Assembly (NCBI GenBank): GCA_030681895.1
Contig: JAUXRI010000316.1
Coordinates: 1 to 64,000, forward strand
Length of the DNA: 64,000 nt
DNA from: Myxococcales bacterium
Lineage (GTDB): Bacteria; Myxococcota; Myxococcia; Myxococcales; Myxococcaceae
Reading direction: 5' to 3'
Part shown: one piece after another, positions 21,175-57,008 of the stretch
Position numbering within the stretch: position 1 is the stretch's first letter
Layout of the letters: each line of letters begins with the position of its first letter
Position numbers and translations under genes: made by a program
The notes under the pieces: model-generated
Seen by the model: the letters and a program-made list of their open reading frames with translations, nothing else
Database searches by the model: none
What the model was told of the DNA's origin: nothing

Positions 21175-22524
21175 ATGAAACGTGCCCTGATGCCGTTGAC
21201 AGCCGTCGTGTGTCTGCTCGCTTCTTCCGCCTTCGCCCAGCTGGGCAACGGCACCAACCCCGAGTGCCTCGACCCCGAGTGTGGCAAGCCCAAGGAGCAG
21301 GGCGGTGGCGGTGGCTGTGGCTGCGGCTGCGGCTGCGGCTGCTCCGTCTGGGTCGCGTACACGGATGACGGCAAGACGCTGGCGTACACCGACGACGCCG
21401 ACGGCGACGGCAAGGGCGACTCGGTCGACAACTGCCCCTTCGCGTCGAACCGCGACCAGATTGACGTCGACGGCGATGGCGTGGGCAACAGCTGCGACAA
21501 CTGCTCGGCCGCGTCGAACTTCAGCCAGCTCGACACCGACGGCGACGGCAGCGGAGACACCTGCGACGGCGACCTCGACGGAGACCTCGTCGAGAACGTG
21601 CTCGACAACTGCGCGTCGATTCCGAACAAGGCCGTCAACGGCGCGCAGCAGAACCTCGACGGTGACGCCTTCGGCGACGTCTGCGACATCGACCTCGACG
21701 GCGACAGCTTCCCCAACACCGACGACCTCTGCCCGCTCATCAACAGCGCGACCAACGTCGACCTGCCGGGGCAGCTCTGCAAGCGCGACTCCGACGTCGA
21801 CGGCATCTTCGACCACGTCGACAACTGCCCCTTCACGGCCAACAGCAACAACCAGGATCTCGACCGCGACGGCCAGGGCGACGTGTGTGACCTCGACATC
21901 GACGGCGACGGGCTCAACGACAAGCTGAGCGACCTGACGGCGACGGGCAAAGACAACTGCTCGCTGGTGCGCAACCGCGACCAGGCCGACGGCGACTTCG
22001 ACGGCCTCGGCGACTCGTGCGACGCGAAGTTCTGTCTCGTCATCGACCCGTCGAACAAGGCCGACTGCCTCGACCCGAGCGGTGCCTTCAAGGTGCACGC
22101 GGGTGGCCTCGTCACCTTGAAGCGCGGCGAGAAGTTCCGCCTGCCGCTGTTCGCCAACCGCAACGGCGCCGCCATCGAATACACGTGGACGGTGGTGGGC
22201 CGCCCGGCGGGCAGCACGGCCGCCGTCGAGAACCCGACCGGCGCCGTCACGATGTCGAACCACTACCAGTACGCGTACCAGGACCAGAGCGTGCCGAGCT
22301 TCACCTCGGACGTCGACGGCGAGTACGACCTGCAGCTCCAGGCGAAGCTCGCGTTCCCCGACCGCGCGTACCCGGAGAAGAAGGAAGCCGTGTCGTCGCT
22401 GAAGATGACGGCCGCGCCGGACGGTGGCTCGACCCAGAAGCCGGGCAGCTGCAGCGCGGTGCCGGTCGACGCCTCGCTCGCCGCCCTCGGGCTCGCGATG
22501 CTGCTGCGTCGCCGCCGCGCCTGA
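21175..22524 (+). CDS. Thrombospondin type-3 repeat surface protein with MYXO-CTERM-like tail
   Basis: A protein of 449 residues with a signal peptide ending SSAFA. A striking Gly-Cys dipeptide run (GGGGCGCGCGCGCS, about residues 43-56) is followed by some seven or eight calcium-binding thrombospondin type-3 repeats (DGDGKGD..DNC type, about 70-285) and an Ig-like beta domain (about 300-410). The end has the MYXO-CTERM layout: a Cys in PGSCSAVPVD, a short hydrophobic helix (ASLAALGLAMLL) and RRRR. In myxobacteria such tails are processed so that the protein is displayed at the cell surface. GGAG precedes the ATG, and a terminator follows. Confidence 0.9.
   Translation: MKRALMPLTAVVCLLASSAFAQLGNGTNPECLDPECGKPKEQGGGGGCGCGCGCGCSVWVAYTDDGKTLAYTDDADGDGKGDSVDNCPFASNRDQIDVDGDGVGNSCDNCSAASNFSQLDTDGDGSGDTCDGDLDGDLVENVLDNCASIPNKAVNGAQQNLDGDAFGDVCDIDLDGDSFPNTDDLCPLINSATNVDLPGQLCKRDSDVDGIFDHVDNCPFTANSNNQDLDRDGQGDVCDLDIDGDGLNDKLSDLTATGKDNCSLVRNRDQADGDFDGLGDSCDAKFCLVIDPSNKADCLDPSGAFKVHAGGLVTLKRGEKFRLPLFANRNGAAIEYTWTVVGRPAGSTAAVENPTGAVTMSNHYQYAYQDQSVPSFTSDVDGEYDLQLQAKLAFPDRAYPEKKEAVSSLKMTAAPDGGSTQKPGSCSAVPVDASLAALGLAMLLRRRRA
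21385..22020. repeat. Coding repeats for thrombospondin type-3 calcium-binding units
   Basis: Repeated GACGGCGACGG-type DNA encodes DxDxDG calcium loops at intervals of about 70-110 bases, with paired Cys codons (DNC, DVC, DSC). Confidence 0.75.
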
Positions 22525-48638: not shown

Positions 48639-49907
48639 TCAGCGCGTCGGCCGGCGCCCTGCGGCGACGAGCAGCTCGAGCTGTGCTGCCCACTGACTGG
48701 TGCGCGCCACCTCGGCCAGACTCTCGGCGTCGCGGGCTCCGCGCTCGGCCTCGATGAGCTCGATGTTGGTGCTGGCGCCTTCCTTCCACGCCGCGCGCGC
48801 GAGCACCTCGGCCTCGAGCGCCCACTTCGACGACGCGCTGGCAGCGCGCGCAGACGCTTCGCGAAGCGACAACACCTGGAGCGCCAGCCGCAGGTCGCTC
48901 TCGGCGCGCTGCCGCACGTCGTCTGCCTGTGCGCGGGCCAGCGCGAGTGAGGCTTCACGTTCCTTGCGCACGCCGCTGCGGGCGAGCCCATCGAAGAGCA
49001 CGAGCTGGCCCGTCAGCTGCGCCGTGACCCCGAGCGAAGGCTGCGTCGGGGTGGCTGGCGTCTGCGCGGTGGGCTGCACGAGGAGCCCTGCGGTCGGAAG
49101 GTAGTCGGTCCAGCTGGTGTCGACGGCACGCTGCGCGAGGGCGACCCGGCTCTCGGCGGCGGCGACGTCTGGGCGCGCGGTGATGACGCGCTCGAGCTCG
49201 CCCGGGCCCGGGAGCTGGCCGAACTCCGGCGTGCCTGAGATGTCGACCGGGCCGCGTTCGCCCAGCACCACGCCCAGCACCTCACGCGACGTCGTCAGCT
49301 CAGCGTTGGCGCGTGCGAGGCGGCCTTCATTGTCCGAGAGCTCGCGGTGCGCGCGGACGAGGTCGAGCCGGGTGCCGAGGCCTCCCGCGAGCCGCAGCGT
49401 CGCCAGCTCGAGCTGCTCCGCGCTCGTCACACGGGCGCGCTCGGCGACGGCCACCAGCTTGTGCTGCAGCTGCACCGCCAACCACGCGCGACCCACGAGG
49501 CTCGTCACCACGCGCGTCACCTCCTTCTCATCTTCAGTCGAAGCCTCGACGGCGAGCTGGGCCTGCTGGGTCGACATCCAGCGCGGCACCGAGAGGAGCG
49601 GAACGTTCAGCGCCAGGTTCGCCCCGCCCGACTGCGCCGGGAGCAGCACGCGGTCGTTGAGCCCACGGTTGCCTTCCAGTTGGGTGAAGGTGCCGTTGAG
49701 CGAGAGCGTCGGGAGCCACGTCGCGCGCGACTGCACCACCAGCGCCTCGGCCCGCAGCACCGCGGCGCGCACCGACGCGACCCGAGGAGATCGCTCCAAC
49801 GCTCGGTCGATGGCCTCGGGCAGCGTCACGCTCGACACCGGCTGAGGCAGGACGTCGGCATCTCCCGGCGCGGCCGACAACACCACCACGAGCAGCAACG
49901 CGCTCAT
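48639..49907 (-). CDS. TolC-family outer membrane efflux protein
   Basis: A protein of 422 residues with a signal peptide and two copies of the OEP helical pattern. Conserved parts are VTLPEAIDRALERSPRVASV near the N terminus, WLPTLSLNGTF, and the second-half repeat GELERVITARPDVAAAESRV with WTDYLPTAGLLVQP. It is the outer membrane channel of the RND system encoded upstream. Its ATG overlaps by 4 bases the stop of a 31-codon remnant frame that copies the end of the adaptor gene, a sign of past rearrangement here. Confidence 0.92.
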   Translation of the reverse strand: MSALLLVVVLSAAPGDADVLPQPVSSVTLPEAIDRALERSPRVASVRAAVLRAEALVVQSRATWLPTLSLNGTFTQLEGNRGLNDRVLLPAQSGGANLALNVPLLSVPRWMSTQQAQLAVEASTEDEKEVTRVVTSLVGRAWLAVQLQHKLVAVAERARVTSAEQLELATLRLAGGLGTRLDLVRAHRELSDNEGRLARANAELTTSREVLGVVLGERGPVDISGTPEFGQLPGPGELERVITARPDVAAAESRVALAQRAVDTSWTDYLPTAGLLVQPTAQTPATPTQPSLGVTAQLTGQLVLFDGLARSGVRKEREASLALARAQADDVRQRAESDLRLALQVLSLREASARAASASSKWALEAEVLARAAWKEGASTNIELIEAERGARDAESLAEVARTSQWAAQLELLVAAGRRPTR

Positions 49908-49999
49908 CGGGCGACCCCGGCATCGGGCTGCAGCACGTCGACCCGCGCTCCGTTCTCGAGGTCTTCAGGCGGGAAGAGCAGCACCTCGAGCGCGCGCAT
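49904..49999 (-). pseudogene. Remnant copy of the 3' end of the RND adaptor gene
   Basis: A 31-codon frame from ATG 49999 contains FPPEDLENGARVDVLQP and ends AGVAR-stop. The real adaptor ends NPPDDLENGERVEVMQP and then GGVAR-stop. The DNA matches closely except for a 9-base gap. Its stop overlaps the TolC start in the ATGA manner expected of a native adaptor-TolC junction, so the remnant may preserve the original operon joint after loss of most of a second adaptor gene. No ribosome site is obvious, so translation is doubtful. Confidence 0.76.
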
Positions 50000-50061
50000 C
50001 GAGTGAGCAGCAGTGCTCTGTACTCGAGGTCGTGAGGCCGGTTGCGCAGCCTTGAACGTCC

Positions 50062-51210
50062 TCATCGAGCGACTCCGCCGTCGGGCTGCACGGGCTGCAT
50101 CACCTCGACCCGCTCTCCGTTCTCGAGGTCGTCAGGCGGGTTGAGCACCACCTTGGCGCCTGCCGCGACGCCGGTGAGGACCTCGACGGTGCGGCCCTGG
50201 TCTCTGGCGATGGTGACGAGCGTGGTGGCGACGACGCCGTCGTTCACCACGTGCAGGCGCACCCCATCGGCGCGAGGCACCACGGCGCTCGCGGGCACGA
50301 GGAGGGGAGGGTCGGCGCGCTCGACGGTGAACGTCACCTGCACGAAGGCGTTCGCCAGCAGCGCGCCCGGCTTCTCGACGAGGGCCTCGACGCGCAGCGT
50401 GCGGGTGACGGGGTCGAGCGCGAAGGCCGAGCGGGTGACGCGCGCCTCGACGGCGAGGGCCGGGCGTTGCGCCGGAGCGATGGAGACGGCCAGCCCCGGC
50501 CTCACGTCTGCTGCGAGCCACTGCGGGACGTCGACCGTCACCTTGAGCGTGTCGGTCTGCGCCACCTCGAAGAGCGGCGCGCGGTCGGACGAGACGAGGG
50601 CGCCCTGCTCGATGAAGCGGCGGGTCACCACGCCCGCGAACGGCGCCACCACACGCGTGAAGCCCTTGAGCGCCGACAGCCGCAGCGTGTCAGCGCGGGT
50701 CGTCTCGACGGACGCGATGGCGGTGGTGAGCCGGCTCTGCGCTTCTTCAGCCTGCTGCTTCGAGGCGACGCCCTGCTCCGACAAGCGGCTGGAGCGTTCG
50801 GCCGCCGAGCGCGCGAGCGTCACGTTCGCTTCTGCTTCGGTGAGCCTGGCCTTCGCGCGCTTCACGTCTTCGTCGACTTCCGGTGACTCGAGCACCGCCA
50901 GCACCTGTCCGGCCTTCACCGTGTCGCCGAGGTCGACGAGGGTGCTCTGCACGAAGCCTGTGCCTCGTGCCGTCACCACCGCAGCCCGCATCGGCGCCGC
51001 GGTGCCTGACAACGAGAAGGTGGCCTTCGCCGGCGCGCGTTGCACGACGCCCGTCACGACGCGACGAGGCGCGGTGGAGAACGCTCGTTGCCGCTCGACG
51101 GCCTCGGCGCGGCGCGCTCTGGGGATCCACCCGGCGGCGACGAGCCCGAGCAACGTCAACACGCCGAGCACCGGCACGGCCTTCGGCAACCTGGGTTTGA
51201 TGTCACTCAT
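50062..51210 (-). CDS. RND efflux periplasmic adaptor (membrane fusion protein)
   Basis: A protein of 382 residues with an N-terminal membrane helix. It has a biotinyl/lipoyl-like half motif (GTGFVQSTLVDLGDTVKAGQ), a coiled-coil hairpin (about 110-165) and the second half motif (LKGFTRVVAPFAGVVTRRFI). A beta-barrel and membrane-proximal domain ends NPPDDLENGERVEVMQP. It bridges the RND pump and TolC in the periplasm. It starts within the end of the pump gene (ATGA, 4 bases). Confidence 0.93.
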   Translation of the reverse strand: MSDIKPRLPKAVPVLGVLTLLGLVAAGWIPRARRAEAVERQRAFSTAPRRVVTGVVQRAPAKATFSLSGTAAPMRAAVVTARGTGFVQSTLVDLGDTVKAGQVLAVLESPEVDEDVKRAKARLTEAEANVTLARSAAERSSRLSEQGVASKQQAEEAQSRLTTAIASVETTRADTLRLSALKGFTRVVAPFAGVVTRRFIEQGALVSSDRAPLFEVAQTDTLKVTVDVPQWLAADVRPGLAVSIAPAQRPALAVEARVTRSAFALDPVTRTLRVEALVEKPGALLANAFVQVTFTVERADPPLLVPASAVVPRADGVRLHVVNDGVVATTLVTIARDQGRTVEVLTGVAAGAKVVLNPPDDLENGERVEVMQPVQPDGGVAR

Positions 51211-54200
51211 GCGCTGACTCCTTCATCGTCACCCGGCTCTTTGAGCGCCTCGTCGAGCGCGCGCGGTGCCCACTTCGCGCGCAGGCGGGAATAGATGACG
51301 GGGACGAGGAACAAGGTGGCGAAGGTGGCGCCGATGATGCCGCCCAACATCGAGCGTCCGAGCGCGGCGTTCTGCTCGCCACCCTCCGACTGGCCCAGCG
51401 ACATGGGGAGCATGCCGATGGCCATCGCGAGCGCCGTCATCAACACCGGCCGCAGCCGCACCCGCCCGGCCTCGAGCGCCGCGTCGATGGCCGACATGCC
51501 CCGCGCGCGTTGTTCGTTCGCGAACGTCACCACCAGAATCGAGTTCGCGGTGGCCACGCCGACGCTCAGCACCGCGCCCATCAACGAGGGCACGCTGAAG
51601 GTCGTCTGCGTCGAGAAGTGCGCCAGCACGATGCCGATGCCTGCGCCGGGGAGCGCCGAGATGATGATGAGCGGGTCGGTCCACGACTGGAAGTTGATGA
51701 CCATCACCGCGTAGACGAGGAGCGCCGCGGCGAGCAGGCCGAGCGCGAGGGCCGCGAAGGCGCTGCGCATCGACTCCACCTGGCCACGCACCTGCACCGA
51801 CGTGCCCGGCGGCAACGTCGCGCGCACCTCGGCCACGATGCCATCGAGCGCATCGGCGACGGTGCCGAGGTCGATGAACTGCACGTCGGCGCGCACCTGG
51901 TAGGTGGGTTGCACGTCGACGCGCGAGGTGAAGACGGGCGTCTGTTGTCGCCTGAGCGTGGAGAGGTCTCCGAGCAGCTGGGCGCCGCGTGGTGTCTGCA
52001 GCGAGAACGTCTCGAGCGCTTCCACCGAGGCCACGACGCCTTGAGGCACCTGCACCGCGACGCCGTAGCCGAAGCCGGTGCGAGGGTCCGTCCAGAACGT
52101 GGGAGCGACCTGGCTCGACGACGAGATGGCGAGCAGCACGTTGTTCGCGACGTCACGCTGCGTGAGGGCCACGTCGGCGGCGCGCAGGCGGTCGACGTCG
52201 ACCTGCAGGCGGGGCGCGTCGACGATTTGATGGAGCCGCACGTCGACGGCTCCGGGCACCGCGCGCAGGCGCTTCTCGATTCTGCGTGCGGCGGCGAGCG
52301 TCACGTCGCGCTTCTGGCCCGACACCTGAACGTCGATGGCCGAGGGCAAGCCGAAGTTGAGGATCTGCGTGACGATGTCGCCGGGCTGAAAGAAGAACCG
52401 CGCCTGAGGGAAGCGCCGGGCCAGGGCCTCGCGGAGCATCGCCTCGTACTCGATGACGCTCTTCGTGCGCGCGGGCGTCAGCTCGATGAGAATCTCTCCA
52501 TCGGCGGTGCTCACGTTCACGCTGTCGGTGATGGCGAGGTTGTAGCCGCTCGAGGGGCCGATGAAGTCGAGCAGGCCTTTGCGCTCGTTCGCAGGAATGA
52601 GCTCACGAATCGCGTTCTCCACCTCTCCGAAGAGCGCCTCGGTCTCTTCCAGCCGGGTGCCTGGCGGCGCCACCACGTGCAGGCGCAACACGCCGGCGTC
52701 GATCTTCGGGAAGAAGTCGCGGCCCACCAGCGTCGAGAGGCCGACCGCCAGCGCCACCGACGCCGCGAAGGTGGCCATCACCAGCGCGCGGTGCGAGAGC
52801 GCCCACGCGAGGATGCCGAGGTAGCTCGTGCGCAGGGCCTCGAAGGTGCGCTCGAAGGCGGCGTGCAGGCGCCCGAAGAAGCCGGTGCCCGGGGCGTGGC
52901 CGCGCTCCACCTCGGCGGGCAGCAGGTACTGCACCATCGTCGGCACGATGGTGCGCGACAGCAGGTACGACGCCATCACCGAGAACGAGACGGCCAGGCC
53001 CATCGGCATGAAGAGGAACCGCGCGGGGCCCTCGAGGAACAACACGCTGATGAACACCACGCTGATGGACAAGCTGGCCACGAAGGCCGGCACGGCGATC
53101 TGCTGCGCGCCGTCGAGAATCGCGCGGGTCAGCGGCTTCCCCATGGCGAGGTTGCGGTGAATGTTCTCGATCTCCACCGTGGCGTCGTCGACGAGAATGC
53201 CGACCGCGAGCGCGAGGCCCCCGAGCGTCATCGCGTTGATGGTGTAGCCGAGTGCGCGAAGGCCAAGCACGGCTACGACGACAGACAACGGAATCGAGGT
53301 GGCGACGATGAGCGTCGAGCGCCACGAGCCGAGGAAGAGCAGAATCATCAGCGCGGTGAGCGCGGCGGCGAGCGTCGCTTCGGTGAGCAGCCCTTCGATG
53401 GCGTGCTCGACGAATCCCGACGCGTCAGCCAGCACGTCGACACGGGTGCCCTCGGGCGCGGCGGCCCTGATGGCCGGGAGCATCGCCTTCACGCGGCTGG
53501 CCACCTCGAGCGTCGAGGCGTCGCCATTCTTCATCACCGTCAGCACCACGCTCCGGCGCCCGTCGGCGCGCGCGATGTTCGTCTGCACCTGAAAGCCGTC
53601 GTGCACGAAGGCCACGTCGCGCACCTGCAAGACGCGGCCATCAGCCCGGCGAATCGGCAGCTCGTTGAGCGCCGCGATGGTCTCGGGCGAGCTGTTGAGC
53701 GCCACGCGGTACTCGCGCTCGGCAATCTTGAGCGAGCCCGTCGGCAGCGTCAGGTTCTGCGCCGACACGGCGAGCGCGACGTCTTGCGGTGACAGCCCCT
53801 GCGCCTCGAGCGCGTCGAGGTCGAGGTCGACGCTCACCTGGCGGAACTTGCCGCCCTGAGGCAGCGGGAAGCGCGTGCCGCGAATGATGGAGAGGGCGGT
53901 GCGCACGCGGTTGTTCACGTGGTCGAACAGCTCGGCCTCGGACAGCGTGTCGTTGGTGAAGGCGAGCTGGAGCACCGGCACGCTCGAGGCCGTGTACCGG
54001 AGGATGATGGGCGGAATCATTCCCGGCGGCATGCGGCGCACGATGGTCTGCGACGCGGCGGTGATCTGCGCCATGGCCGCGCTGACGTCAGCGCCGGGCT
54101 GCAGGTACACGCGAATGACGCTCACGCCGTCGTAGGTGTCGCTCTGCAGTCGAGACACGTCGGCGGTGTTGCCCGCGATGGAGAACTCGGAGAACTGCGT

Positions 54201-54389
54201 CACCTGCGCTTCCATCTGCTGCGCCGGCAGGCCCGAGTACGTCCACACCACGCTGATGACGGGCAGGTCGACCGAGGGCAGCACGTCGGTCGGCGTTCGC
54301 CGCAGCACCTGCCAGCCGGCGAGGAGCAGCGCGAGCGAGAGGACGACGAAGGTGTAGGGTCTCCGAAGCGCGAGGCGAACGATCCACAT
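51207..54389 (-). CDS. RND-family efflux pump permease (HAE1-like)
   Basis: A protein of about 1060 residues with the RND layout: helix 1 near the N terminus (RRPYTFVVLSLALLLAGWQV), two large periplasmic loops and eleven further helices. The proton-relay aspartates are present in GGLALAVGILVDDATVEIENIH. The N terminus (TDVLPSVDLPVISVVWTYSG) is of the HAE1 drug/solvent type, though metal export cannot be excluded by eye. The start at ATG 54389 gives the usual length; ATG 54401 is also possible. It heads the pump, adaptor and TolC operon, 150 bases downstream of the cupredoxin gene. Confidence 0.94.
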   Translation of the reverse strand: MWIVRLALRRPYTFVVLSLALLLAGWQVLRRTPTDVLPSVDLPVISVVWTYSGLPAQQMEAQVTQFSEFSIAGNTADVSRLQSDTYDGVSVIRVYLQPGADVSAAMAQITAASQTIVRRMPPGMIPPIILRYTASSVPVLQLAFTNDTLSEAELFDHVNNRVRTALSIIRGTRFPLPQGGKFRQVSVDLDLDALEAQGLSPQDVALAVSAQNLTLPTGSLKIAEREYRVALNSSPETIAALNELPIRRADGRVLQVRDVAFVHDGFQVQTNIARADGRRSVVLTVMKNGDASTLEVASRVKAMLPAIRAAAPEGTRVDVLADASGFVEHAIEGLLTEATLAAALTALMILLFLGSWRSTLIVATSIPLSVVVAVLGLRALGYTINAMTLGGLALAVGILVDDATVEIENIHRNLAMGKPLTRAILDGAQQIAVPAFVASLSISVVFISVLFLEGPARFLFMPMGLAVSFSVMASYLLSRTIVPTMVQYLLPAEVERGHAPGTGFFGRLHAAFERTFEALRTSYLGILAWALSHRALVMATFAASVALAVGLSTLVGRDFFPKIDAGVLRLHVVAPPGTRLEETEALFGEVENAIRELIPANERKGLLDFIGPSSGYNLAITDSVNVSTADGEILIELTPARTKSVIEYEAMLREALARRFPQARFFFQPGDIVTQILNFGLPSAIDVQVSGQKRDVTLAAARRIEKRLRAVPGAVDVRLHQIVDAPRLQVDVDRLRAADVALTQRDVANNVLLAISSSSQVAPTFWTDPRTGFGYGVAVQVPQGVVASVEALETFSLQTPRGAQLLGDLSTLRRQQTPVFTSRVDVQPTYQVRADVQFIDLGTVADALDGIVAEVRATLPPGTSVQVRGQVESMRSAFAALALGLLAAALLVYAVMVINFQSWTDPLIIISALPGAGIGIVLAHFSTQTTFSVPSLMGAVLSVGVATANSILVVTFANEQRARGMSAIDAALEAGRVRLRPVLMTALAMAIGMLPMSLGQSEGGEQNAALGRSMLGGIIGATFATLFLVPVIYSRLRAKWAPRALDEALKEPGDDEGVSA

Positions 54390-54540: not shown

Positions 54541-55824
54541 CTACTGCTGGTACTCGCCGTAGGGCGACCCGTTGAAGCGCCTGAGCAAGGGGGCCTCGTG
54601 GCCCTCGAGTGACACCTCGAGCGCGCTGTCGCCGGCACACGCAGTCACGGGCACCTCGATGCTGTTTCCGTTGGGCTCGAGCACCTTGAGCACCTGCGCT
54701 CCCTTCGGCACGTGGTCGATTCGCCAGGTGCCGTCATCTGCCACTGTGGTGGCGAGCTCGAGCACCGGCACCACGACGACCCATGCCCGCATGTTGGCGT
54801 GGATGTCACACTGAAGGCGGAACCCACCCTCCTTCAAGAACGCAACCGGCTCTGGCTCGGCCTTCTTCGTCGGGCTGATCCGCACGGTGGTGCGATCGCT
54901 CGTGAAGACGGAGTGCTCTTTGTTGTCCCGGTTCGGGAACGACACCGAGTCGTTCTTCTGGATGATCAGCATGCGCGGGGTGAATTGCAGATCCTTCTGA
55001 GCGATCTCGTGGCGGCGAGGCTCGCTGAGCTTCACGGAGCGCGCGCGGGTCTTGAGATACACGACGAGGTCGCTGGCTTTCACCTTCGGGTCTCTCGACG
55101 AGAAGGTGACCCTGCCCGAGAGTGAGCAGCCCTGTGCTGAGGGCTTCACCTCTTCCACCTCGTTGGAAGCCTTCGCCGTGGGTCGCGGCATCGCGATGAG
55201 CAGAGAGCTCCTCGGGTACCTGGTGCGAAACGCCGTCGCGACGCTCGCCAGCTCGGGGCTCTGCGAGAACGCGGCAGTCAAGACGAGCAGGGCATCGCGC
55301 TCCTCACGCACGTCGTCCTGGGGAAAGTTGGCCTCGTGCTTCGTCAGGGCAGCCGCCGCCTCGAGCAGCCGGTTGTGTTCGAGGGCGGCGCGCACCGCAC
55401 GCCTCGAACCATCACGGCTCAGTGGACGCGCCTGGACGATGGCGTCGGGTTCTCGCGTCGGCACGGGCGCGCTTGCCTCTGCTCGAGCTTCGACCGTCGG
55501 AGCTTCCACGCGCGGCACTTCGACCGTCGCGATCGGCGCGGGCTCCACTGCTGTTGCCGGTGCCGCGACGGGCGTTGGTTCCACCCTCGGCGTCGGCTCC
55601 GGCACACCGAGCGACGAGACGGCCCAGCCGCCGACCGCAACGCCGAGCAGGCCGGTGATGATCAGCAGCGCCGGTCCGATGGGGCCACGCGCCGGGCTCG
55701 CTCCAGACCGCACGCTGTCGCTGATGCGCTTCCACAGCCGCTCGTTCAGCGCCGCAGGTGGTGGCGGTGGCGCCTGCCGTTCCGGCGCCAGCATCGCGTC
55801 GAGCTCAGGGTCGCGTTCGAGCAT
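54541..55824 (-). CDS. Membrane anti-sigma-like protein with C-terminal cupredoxin copper site
   Basis: A protein of 427 residues. A short cytoplasmic N terminus (1-45, MLERDPELDAMLAPE) resembles small anti-sigma regions, and a membrane helix follows (about 48-72). A long Pro/Val/Glu-rich spacer (75-130), a helical TPR-like section (138-210) and a beta domain (232-415) come next. The beta domain has a cupredoxin-type copper site: His304 in NKEHSVF, then Cys339, His342 and Met345 in LQCDIHANMRAW. It starts 20 bases inside the end of an ECF sigma factor gene. This pairing suggests an anti-sigma factor whose periplasmic part senses copper or redox state. No known gene of exactly this layout is familiar to me. 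Confidence 0.84.
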   Translation of the reverse strand: MLERDPELDAMLAPERQAPPPPPAALNERLWKRISDSVRSGASPARGPIGPALLIITGLLGVAVGGWAVSSLGVPEPTPRVEPTPVAAPATAVEPAPIATVEVPRVEAPTVEARAEASAPVPTREPDAIVQARPLSRDGSRRAVRAALEHNRLLEAAAALTKHEANFPQDDVREERDALLVLTAAFSQSPELASVATAFRTRYPRSSLLIAMPRPTAKASNEVEEVKPSAQGCSLSGRVTFSSRDPKVKASDLVVYLKTRARSVKLSEPRRHEIAQKDLQFTPRMLIIQKNDSVSFPNRDNKEHSVFTSDRTTVRISPTKKAEPEPVAFLKEGGFRLQCDIHANMRAWVVVVPVLELATTVADDGTWRIDHVPKGAQVLKVLEPNGNSIEVPVTACAGDSALEVSLEGHEAPLLRRFNGSPYGEYQQ

Positions 55825-56335
55825 GGAGGCCTCCTTCCATCGAGCCCAGCCGCCGGGTCATCGCGTCCTTGAACTGCTTTCGCGCGGCCTTGAGCCTCGA
55901 CCACGCGGTATCGGTCAGCAGCCCGAGCACGGCGGCCGCCTCACTCACTGGCACCTGGTCGAGCTCGTGCATGATGAAGATGGCGCGCTTCTCGTCATCG
56001 AGTTCTTGAAGCGCGCGGCGGATCAACCGCTGCGCTGCGGCCCGCTCCGAGTGCTCCTCGGGTCCCGGTGCGTCGTCGACCTGCTCCGAAGGCGAACGTG
56101 TCTCGGCCCGCTTCGTGCTCGCGAGCGCACGCTCGTTGGCCACCAGCCCATGCGCGATGCCGAACAGCCACGGCCGCACGGGCCGCGAGGTGTCGAAGTC
56201 GGCGAGTCTGCGATGCACGGTGACGAAGACGTCGTGCGCGAGGTCCTCGACGCGATGGGCCGGAGCGCCCAACCGCCGCAGCGACTGCAGCACGTACCCG
56301 AGGTGCTCCCGATAGAGCGACTCGAGCCCTGTCAC
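55805..56335 (-). CDS. ECF-type RNA polymerase sigma factor
   Basis: A protein of 176 residues starting at GTG 56335. Region 2 reads LYREHLGYVLQSLRRLG and VEDLAHDVFVTVHRRLADFD, then WLFGIAHGLVANE. Region 4 reads LQELDDEKRAIFIMHELDQV, then SEAAAVLGLLTDTAWSRLKA. ECF factors direct RNA polymerase to stress promoters and are held by membrane anti-sigma factors. The next gene overlaps by 20 bases and encodes a membrane protein with a copper-type site, the likely partner. The RND pump downstream on the same strand is a likely target or co-transcribed unit. Confidence 0.92.
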   Translation of the reverse strand: MTGLESLYREHLGYVLQSLRRLGAPAHRVEDLAHDVFVTVHRRLADFDTSRPVRPWLFGIAHGLVANERALASTKRAETRSPSEQVDDAPGPEEHSERAAAQRLIRRALQELDDEKRAIFIMHELDQVPVSEAAAVLGLLTDTAWSRLKAARKQFKDAMTRRLGSMEGGLHARTRP

Positions 56336-56417
56336 GAACGCCTCGAGGTGCGGTGCGCGGCCATCACCACTCTCATTGTGGCCACCCCCTGGAGTTCGTC
56401 ACCACCTCGCGTCGATT

Positions 56418-56464
56418 GTCGCACGCTGGTGCGACGGGAAGGGCTTGGCCCCGAGGCGTCGGGG
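56418..56464. promoter_or_regulatory. Two hairpins upstream of the gene at 56499
   Basis: GTCGCAC/GTGCGAC (arms 7, loop 4, 56418-56435) and CCCCGA/TCGGGG (arms 6, loop 4, 56449-56464) lie in the 163-base divergent region between the ECF gene and the gene at 56499. They may be operators or leader structures. Confidence 0.4.
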
Positions 56465-56498
56465 TGCTGTGGTTCGCGCCTCTCTCACAGGAGCCTTC

Positions 56499-57008
56499 AT
56501 GCCTGCCATTCAGAACCGCGTCGCCACCACGCGCACCACGGCCACTCAAGCTGTCGCTGCTCCCGCCACGACTGCTGCCGACGCCGCGCTCGCGAAGAAG
56601 GCCACTTCGTGGATCAAGACGAACTCGGGTGAAGGCTGGGGCAAGAAGTTCCCGCCGCTCGACTCGGGCAACCTCGGCGTCTCGGCCTTCGTGCCGTCGC
56701 AGGCTCAGGCGAAGGCGCTGCTCGCCGATGCGAAGGCCACGCTTCCCGGAGCCGCAGGCATTCAGGCCGCGAAGCTCGACCCCGCGAAGAACCAACTCCT
56801 GGTGGTGCTGACGAGCGACGACGAGCCGCAGATGCACCTCGTGCTCCAGGACAAGCGCACCGGCAGCCTCAAGAACCTCGGCGAGGTGAACTCCATCGAC
56901 CTGCCTTCGAGGGACGGCGACTTCGGCCAGGCGCTCAGCCGCGTGTCGAAGGGCGCGAAGTGGTTGCCGCTGGGCGAGGGCTCTGCGCCGCCGAACTGGT
57001 GGAAGTGA
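56499..57008 (+). CDS. Hypothetical protein, 169 aa
   Basis: The ATG at 56499 is preceded by CAGGAG at ideal spacing. The protein begins with a Thr/Ala-rich, unstructured segment (MPAIQNRVATTRTTATQAVA) and then has a compact alpha/beta domain with segments PLDSGNLGVSAFVPSQ and KNQLLVVLTSDDEPQMHLVL, ending WLPLGEGSAPPNWWK. There is no cleavable signal peptide. The Thr/Ala-rich N terminus resembles those of some myxobacterial proteins exported by non-classical routes, which is only a guess. The gene at 57019 follows by 10 bases on the same strand. Confidence 0.76.
   Translation: MPAIQNRVATTRTTATQAVAAPATTAADAALAKKATSWIKTNSGEGWGKKFPPLDSGNLGVSAFVPSQAQAKALLADAKATLPGAAGIQAAKLDPAKNQLLVVLTSDDEPQMHLVLQDKRTGSLKNLGEVNSIDLPSRDGDFGQALSRVSKGAKWLPLGEGSAPPNWWK

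Follow-up and report, generated by a model that had tools for sequence, protein, structure and literature searches.

ChrR and other regulators join an anti-sigma part to a C-terminal metal-binding beta domain, as the protein analyzed here is predicted to do. Unlike this protein, ChrR is cytoplasmic and combines a cupin domain with a zinc anti-sigma domain. In the CnrYXH system of Cupriavidus metallidurans, the class II anti-sigma factor CnrY, the sensor CnrX, and the sigma factor CnrH are accompanied by the RND pump CnrCBA. Two CnrY helices have been described as wrapping sigma4 and sigma2, and anti-sigma domains of the CnrY type as highly divergent and very short, with about 3% identity to RseA (PMC7406223). 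The locus described here resembles CnrYXH in its CnrH-like sigma factor, a short two-helix cytoplasmic part, one transmembrane (TM) segment, a periplasmic metal site (here predicted), and RND genes downstream. It differs in that sensor and putative anti-sigma factor form one chain, with a cupredoxin in place of CnrX. Its pump is HAE-1-like and lacks a conserved link to the sigma pair, and no sequence match to CnrY was found.

A copper-dependent ECF sigma factor has been described in myxobacteria, CorE of Myxococcus xanthus (PMC3107203). It detects copper directly, by means of a Cys-rich extension at its C terminus (PMC10141476), and functions without the layout seen here. The sigma factor studied here is also a myxobacterial ECF sigma factor; unlike CorE, it ends at residue 176 and has no Cys cluster or extension. 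The copper domain has two kinds of known counterpart. Amicyanin (PDB 1aac, 1sfd, 1id2) shares the cupredoxin fold and the C-x2-H-x2-M ligand loop, but works as a free electron carrier and lacks both a membrane anchor and a regulatory part. Stand-alone secreted cupredoxin/prealbumin-like proteins (Cupredoxin_1-like) have the same domain and the same four ligands, but are secreted alone and are not linked to a sigma gene. No anti-sigma factor with a cupredoxin, plastocyanin, or blue-copper domain was found in the titles and abstracts of the non-subscription literature. Within that literature, this agrees with the initial annotation, which knew of no anti-sigma factor with such a layout.

The window, which is the whole 64,000-nucleotide stretch of Myxococcales DNA that was analyzed, holds the features listed in Table 1. 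Its parts are ordinary and their combination is unusual; a sigma/anti-sigma pair with a copper or redox sensor is a plausible description of them. The explanation that we judge somewhat better than an even bet is an ECF sigma factor paired with a short two-helix membrane anti-sigma factor, whose C-terminal amicyanin-like domain originated as a copy of a cupredoxin that is secreted in this genus and reads copper or redox state.

Table 1. Features of the sigma locus and of the adjoining RND operon, with positions in the window.
Feature	Positions	Strand	Basis or remark
Possible sigma-operon promoter, GTGACG-N16-CACAAT	56375-56402	minus	Shared with the upstream region of the G095 sigma gene
ECF sigma factor, 176 aa, GTG start	55805-56335	minus	Sigma70_r2, Sigma70_r4_2
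Putative anti-sigma factor fused to copper domain, 427 aa, single-pass	54541-55824	minus	ORF, one TM segment, AlphaFold model
Cytoplasmic N terminus, residues 1-45, putative sigma-binding module	55690-55824	minus	Model helices 6-11 and 23-39
TM segment, about residues 48-72	55609-55683	minus	Hydropathy; basic residues before it
Helical stalk in the periplasm, residues 137-202, preceded by a Pro/Ala-rich linker	55219-55416	minus	Three model helices
Cupredoxin plus prealbumin-like domain, residues 230-427; ligands H304, C339, H342, M345	54544-55137	minus	Profile, model, Foldseek
RND permease, HAE-1-like, probable ATG at 54389	51207-54389	minus	ACR_tran 3e-196
RND periplasmic adaptor	50062-51210	minus	RND_mfp above cut-off
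TolC-type outer membrane channel	48639-49907	minus	OEP 3e-35

The sigma ORF matched Sigma70_r2 (6.6e-10) and Sigma70_r4_2 (1.5e-9), both above the Pfam cut-off, and scored 69 bits vs 43 with TIGR02937. It contains sigma regions 2 and 4 only, as is characteristic of ECF sigma factors. The nearest sigma factor with a solved structure was CnrH (7.4e-12 among PDB sequences), a point in favor of the preferred explanation. So is the 20-base overlap (55805-55824) of the sigma gene with the membrane-protein gene; both reading frames lie where the initial annotation put them. The description of the second product as a single-pass protein was also borne out by hydropathy, which in 19-residue windows showed a single hydrophobic stretch (window starts at residues 46-56). 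Basic residues ahead of it fit an N-in topology. A gene that adjoins or overlaps the sigma gene and encodes a TM segment is the general mark of ECF anti-sigma factors.

The cytoplasmic part resembles class II rather than class I anti-sigma factors. Class I (RseA/zinc-type) proteins have a four-helix domain, with Hx3Cx2C if zinc-binding, whereas this protein has about 47 residues before the TM segment, two helices, and no Cys or His there. The AlphaFold model places two helices (6-11 and 23-39) ahead of the membrane at moderate pLDDT. This is the short two-helix arrangement of class II (CnrY-type) proteins and supports the preferred explanation. The membrane protein matched no anti-sigma family in Pfam or NCBIfam, and residues 1-48, a very short segment, matched neither CnrY nor any other solved anti-sigma chain among PDB sequences. 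Since CnrY-type domains are very short and divergent, the missing profile match says little.

A second line of evidence came from relatives of the sigma factor. In its family, 19 distinct relatives are followed by a TM protein that begins at or near the sigma stop, a count conditional on the scan, which required a TM segment. Nearly all of these partners carry the same short N-terminal pattern: an acidic and hydrophobic start, a Pro-rich turn, and a basic amphipathic helix. Their overlaps with the sigma gene are mostly of the 4-base type and they are usually about 220-290 residues long. Several of the cupredoxin-free sigma partners also have the helical stalk, with best matches at 145-208. We built an N-terminal profile from 15 other sigma-linked membrane proteins, on which window residues 1-48 scored 14.0 bits, a score reached by 0 of 2000 shuffles. 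Both the recurring gene order and this score count for the preferred explanation. The proposal that the short N terminus binds the sigma factor thus gained a recurring sigma-linked family and found no anti-sigma match in Pfam, NCBIfam, or the PDB.

The C-terminal domain is, by its sequence and model, a true type-1-like copper domain that is predicted to bind copper. As a single sequence, it scored below the curated cut-off of Pfam Cupredoxin_1 (20.7 vs 27 bits). A seven-sequence profile of the domain reached amicyanins in the PDB at 3e-5, with its four ligands aligned to those of amicyanin. The residue numbers first given for the ligand set were exact. A profile of 55 rows, from Myxococcota, Acidobacteriota, Verrucomicrobiota, Pseudomonadota, and others, matched PDB amicyanins (4e-10 to 2e-9) and an additional cupredoxin domain carried by a nitrite reductase (3e-15). 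In those 55 rows, V294, N298, H304, G333, C339, H342, and M345 were invariant, and C-x2-H-x2-M was the rule among the domain relatives, which span many phyla. AlphaFold pLDDT was mostly above 90 over residues 231-410. Foldseek with the domain model returned amicyanin first, in several entries (E 3e-6, rmsd 2.0-2.2 Å, about 86 columns). The domain annotated as a periplasmic beta domain therefore models as an amicyanin-like cupredoxin fold, to about 2 Å, with the His, Cys, His, and Met of a type-1 site in order and a short ligand loop. The cupredoxin core covers residues ~270-352 and is followed by a prealbumin-like part. This C-terminal part gave profile matches to NOMO and scaffoldin, and CarboxypepD_reg matched it weakly.

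Most of the domain's Myxococcota relatives that were inspected stand alone and have a signal-peptide-like start. One of these secreted copies is encoded in the window's own genome (contig C117); it is 83% identical to the fused domain over 197 residues and has the same four ligands. A maximum-likelihood tree placed the fused domain beside this copy (99/85), inside the clade of the genus. The fusion looks recent from this sister position. Between the two copies dN/dS was 0.21, which indicates purifying selection, and this value and the tree both favor the preferred explanation. Against it, changes after the fusion on the window branch were no rarer at copper-site residues than at the other positions (2/40 vs 9/157, p = 1), so they point to no special constraint on the site. 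The dS values were mixed and give no date for the fusion: 0.51 between the fused domain and the C117 copy, 0.24 between the C117 copy and that of a congener (G094), 1.3 between the sigma pair and that of another congener (G095), and 0.50 between the RND operon and that of G095. In this genus, the genes around the stand-alone copies code for a CCP_MauG peroxidase, a coiled-coil protein of outer-membrane type, and a pentapeptide protein. As a side observation, a genus-level cluster (L039:7064-11774, and also L040 and L042) contains genes for a pentapeptide protein, a MauG-type di-haem peroxidase, a coiled-coil outer-membrane-type protein, a secreted cupredoxin, and a zinc-ribbon protein. The window's genome also encodes a secreted protein with a cytochrome-c-like start (CAICH) and two cupredoxin-like repeats (L004, G000:C185).

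The fusion itself is rare. Relatives G090-G095 belong to the same genus as the window. Among 195 Myxococcota genomes, only the window genome and G095 shared an alignment over the full length of the protein. These two genomes also supplied the only loci, among 144 with a cupredoxin-domain match, at which a sigma gene adjoins the domain; at one other locus a sigma-like ORF is present but distant and unlinked. Searching genome contigs with the full-length protein gave no match, and searching them with the domain alignment gave 80 loci, none of them fused. That the fusion is known from two genomes only counts against the preferred explanation. Because the partners of the sigma relatives share the N terminus and stalk without a cupredoxin, and the fusion is so restricted, the membrane protein is best read as a short anti-sigma protein of the CnrY-like kind to which a copper domain was added.

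The G095 protein (L038:10256-11404) is 33% identical over residues 1-397 in one frame, and its sigma factor is 71% identical to that of the window. Its N terminus aligned directly with that of the window (46% in the N-terminal search) and scored -1.6 bits on the partner profile, where 547 of 2000 shuffles did as well. Its C-terminal domain is 25% identical and keeps H, C, and H, with Glu in place of the Met (CDAHPGE). The profile score and the lost Met are two further points against the preferred explanation. In type-1 sites, the axial position holds the weakest ligand and the one that varies most, so the G095 domain may still bind copper. The two genomes may share one fusion that has decayed in G095, may have gained the domain independently, or may differ because the window's domain was replaced by a C117 copy. 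With a G095 domain branch as extremely long as 7.4 changes per site, these histories are indistinguishable.

The RND operon described as lying directly downstream is indeed on the same strand, with 151 bases between the anti-sigma stop and the permease ATG, followed by the adaptor and channel genes. As a conserved or metal-specific target it fared less well. The permease scored 564 bits with RND_permease_2 vs 380 with CusA/CzcA (cut-off 701), so the heavy-metal subfamily model was not its best match. MdtB was its only solved relative at 1e-80, and TM4 of the window permease carries DD (LVDDATVEIENIHR). Orthologues in G095 and G093 (84% and 89% identical) are divergent from a LysR gene (L100, L101), and the G095 sigma pair has no RND genes beside it, its pump being elsewhere in the genome. 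The link between sigma pair and pump is thus specific to the window genome among those seen. Homology of the window to its relatives ends exactly at the permease ATG, and the best match to the LysR gene in the window genome, which is about 88% complete, was no orthologue (2e-14, 29%). The broken homology and the missing orthologue suggest a change of pump regulator. Separately, we observed that the whole operon (48639-54389) is 84-89% identical to the G095 and G093 operons.

These data bear on the idea that the sigma factor, the sensor-anti-sigma factor, and the RND pump are one copper-efflux module, a counterpart of CnrYXH-CnrCBA with sensor and inhibitor in one chain. The idea would supply the preferred explanation with a target, so the two are not exclusive. 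The shared strand and short gap, in which no coding-strand terminator was found, argue for it, and because the LysR gene has no orthologue in the window genome, the pump may have passed to sigma control. The pump is not CusA-like, however, the adjacency is absent from G095 although both parts are present there, and the candidate sigma-operon motif does not occur before the pump. We therefore consider a dedicated efflux switch unlikely. The adjacency may reflect a real replacement of the regulator or a chance neighbor; the pump is probably a recent neighbor only, and at most a lineage-specific target of the sigma factor.

Other explanations concern the protein itself. It could be a true anti-sigma factor with the copper domain as a passenger: the recent fusion would serve to tether a cupredoxin that transfers electrons or carries copper, and the signal would be read by the stalk, as in the relatives without a cupredoxin. 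No cupredoxin domain was found in the other partners of the sigma clade that were examined, and the recent origin beside C117, the lack of extra constraint on the site, and the strongly diverged G095 domain without its Met would all fit. The fused domain nevertheless keeps all four ligands under an overall dN/dS well below one, and a homologous domain is found in both lineages that have this sigma pair. A passenger domain is accordingly a serious alternative that we still hold to be less than probable. The protein might also be a membrane cupredoxin, either an electron carrier or a copper chaperone, that is merely co-transcribed with the sigma gene. The missing anti-sigma family and chain matches would be explained in this way, but such matches are hardly expected for domains as short and divergent as those of the CnrY type (PMC7406223), and the sigma overlap and N-terminal pattern persist in cupredoxin-free partners. 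This makes a bystander role improbable. A chimera in which the assembly wrongly joined a sigma operon to a cupredoxin gene is more improbable by far. The window lies on contig C247 of a 352-contig draft (9.8 Mb, 87.85% complete, 5.6% contamination), the intact form is known from one genome only, and the junction with the RND genes is new. However, the fused domain differs by 17% from the copy in its own genome, so it is not a misjoined duplicate. The independent G095 assembly has the same one-frame architecture, and the fused domain and the C117 copy have similar GC3.

Copper or redox sensing by the membrane protein, as the preferred explanation has it, is plausible from sequence and model. 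The N-terminal helices would clamp the sigma factor at the membrane, while the copper domain would respond to its loading with copper in the periplasm, to redox state, or to contact with a partner that is a redox or outer-membrane protein. A change there would travel through the stalk and TM segment, or would trigger proteolysis, and release the sigma factor. Once free, the sigma factor would transcribe its own operon and other genes. Known cupredoxins change little on metal binding, which weighs against such a mechanism. Quite possibly, though we stop short of calling it probable, this is the first anti-sigma factor with a type-1 copper (amicyanin-like) sensor. It would be a one-chain counterpart of CnrY and CnrX that arose within one myxobacterial genus, when a secreted blue-copper protein was joined to a short anti-sigma factor already present, and it would make transcription depend on copper or on the electron-transfer state in the periplasm. 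Should the copper domain indeed be the sensor, a transcription switch would have acquired a new input through the capture of an entire secreted redox protein, and the sensor domain would be spectroscopically visible (blue). Both the states before the capture (partners lacking a cupredoxin, the domain on its own) and those after it (one intact and one diverged fusion) are at hand, so domain swaps in laboratory strains could test how a periplasmic sensor originates.

Upstream of the sigma gene, the window and G095 share GGTGACGA-N15-CACAAT, for which 0.04 matches are expected per window. The shared motif is a candidate promoter of the sigma operon, or may simply be inherited sequence. GTGACG-N15-17-CACAAT was tried as a regulon marker and rejected. 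It had six matches in the two genomes, two of them before the sigma genes; two of the others are in G000 and two in G095. No regulon was found, since the extra matches inspected, those in G095, fall in or among unrelated ORFs. A 210-aa ORF (56376-57008), with no match in Pfam or NCBIfam, is divergent from the sigma gene and lies across or next to the possible promoter. Elsewhere in the window, at 21175-22524, is a predicted secreted protein of 449 aa that has, close to its start, a run of Gly and a run of CGCGCGCGC.
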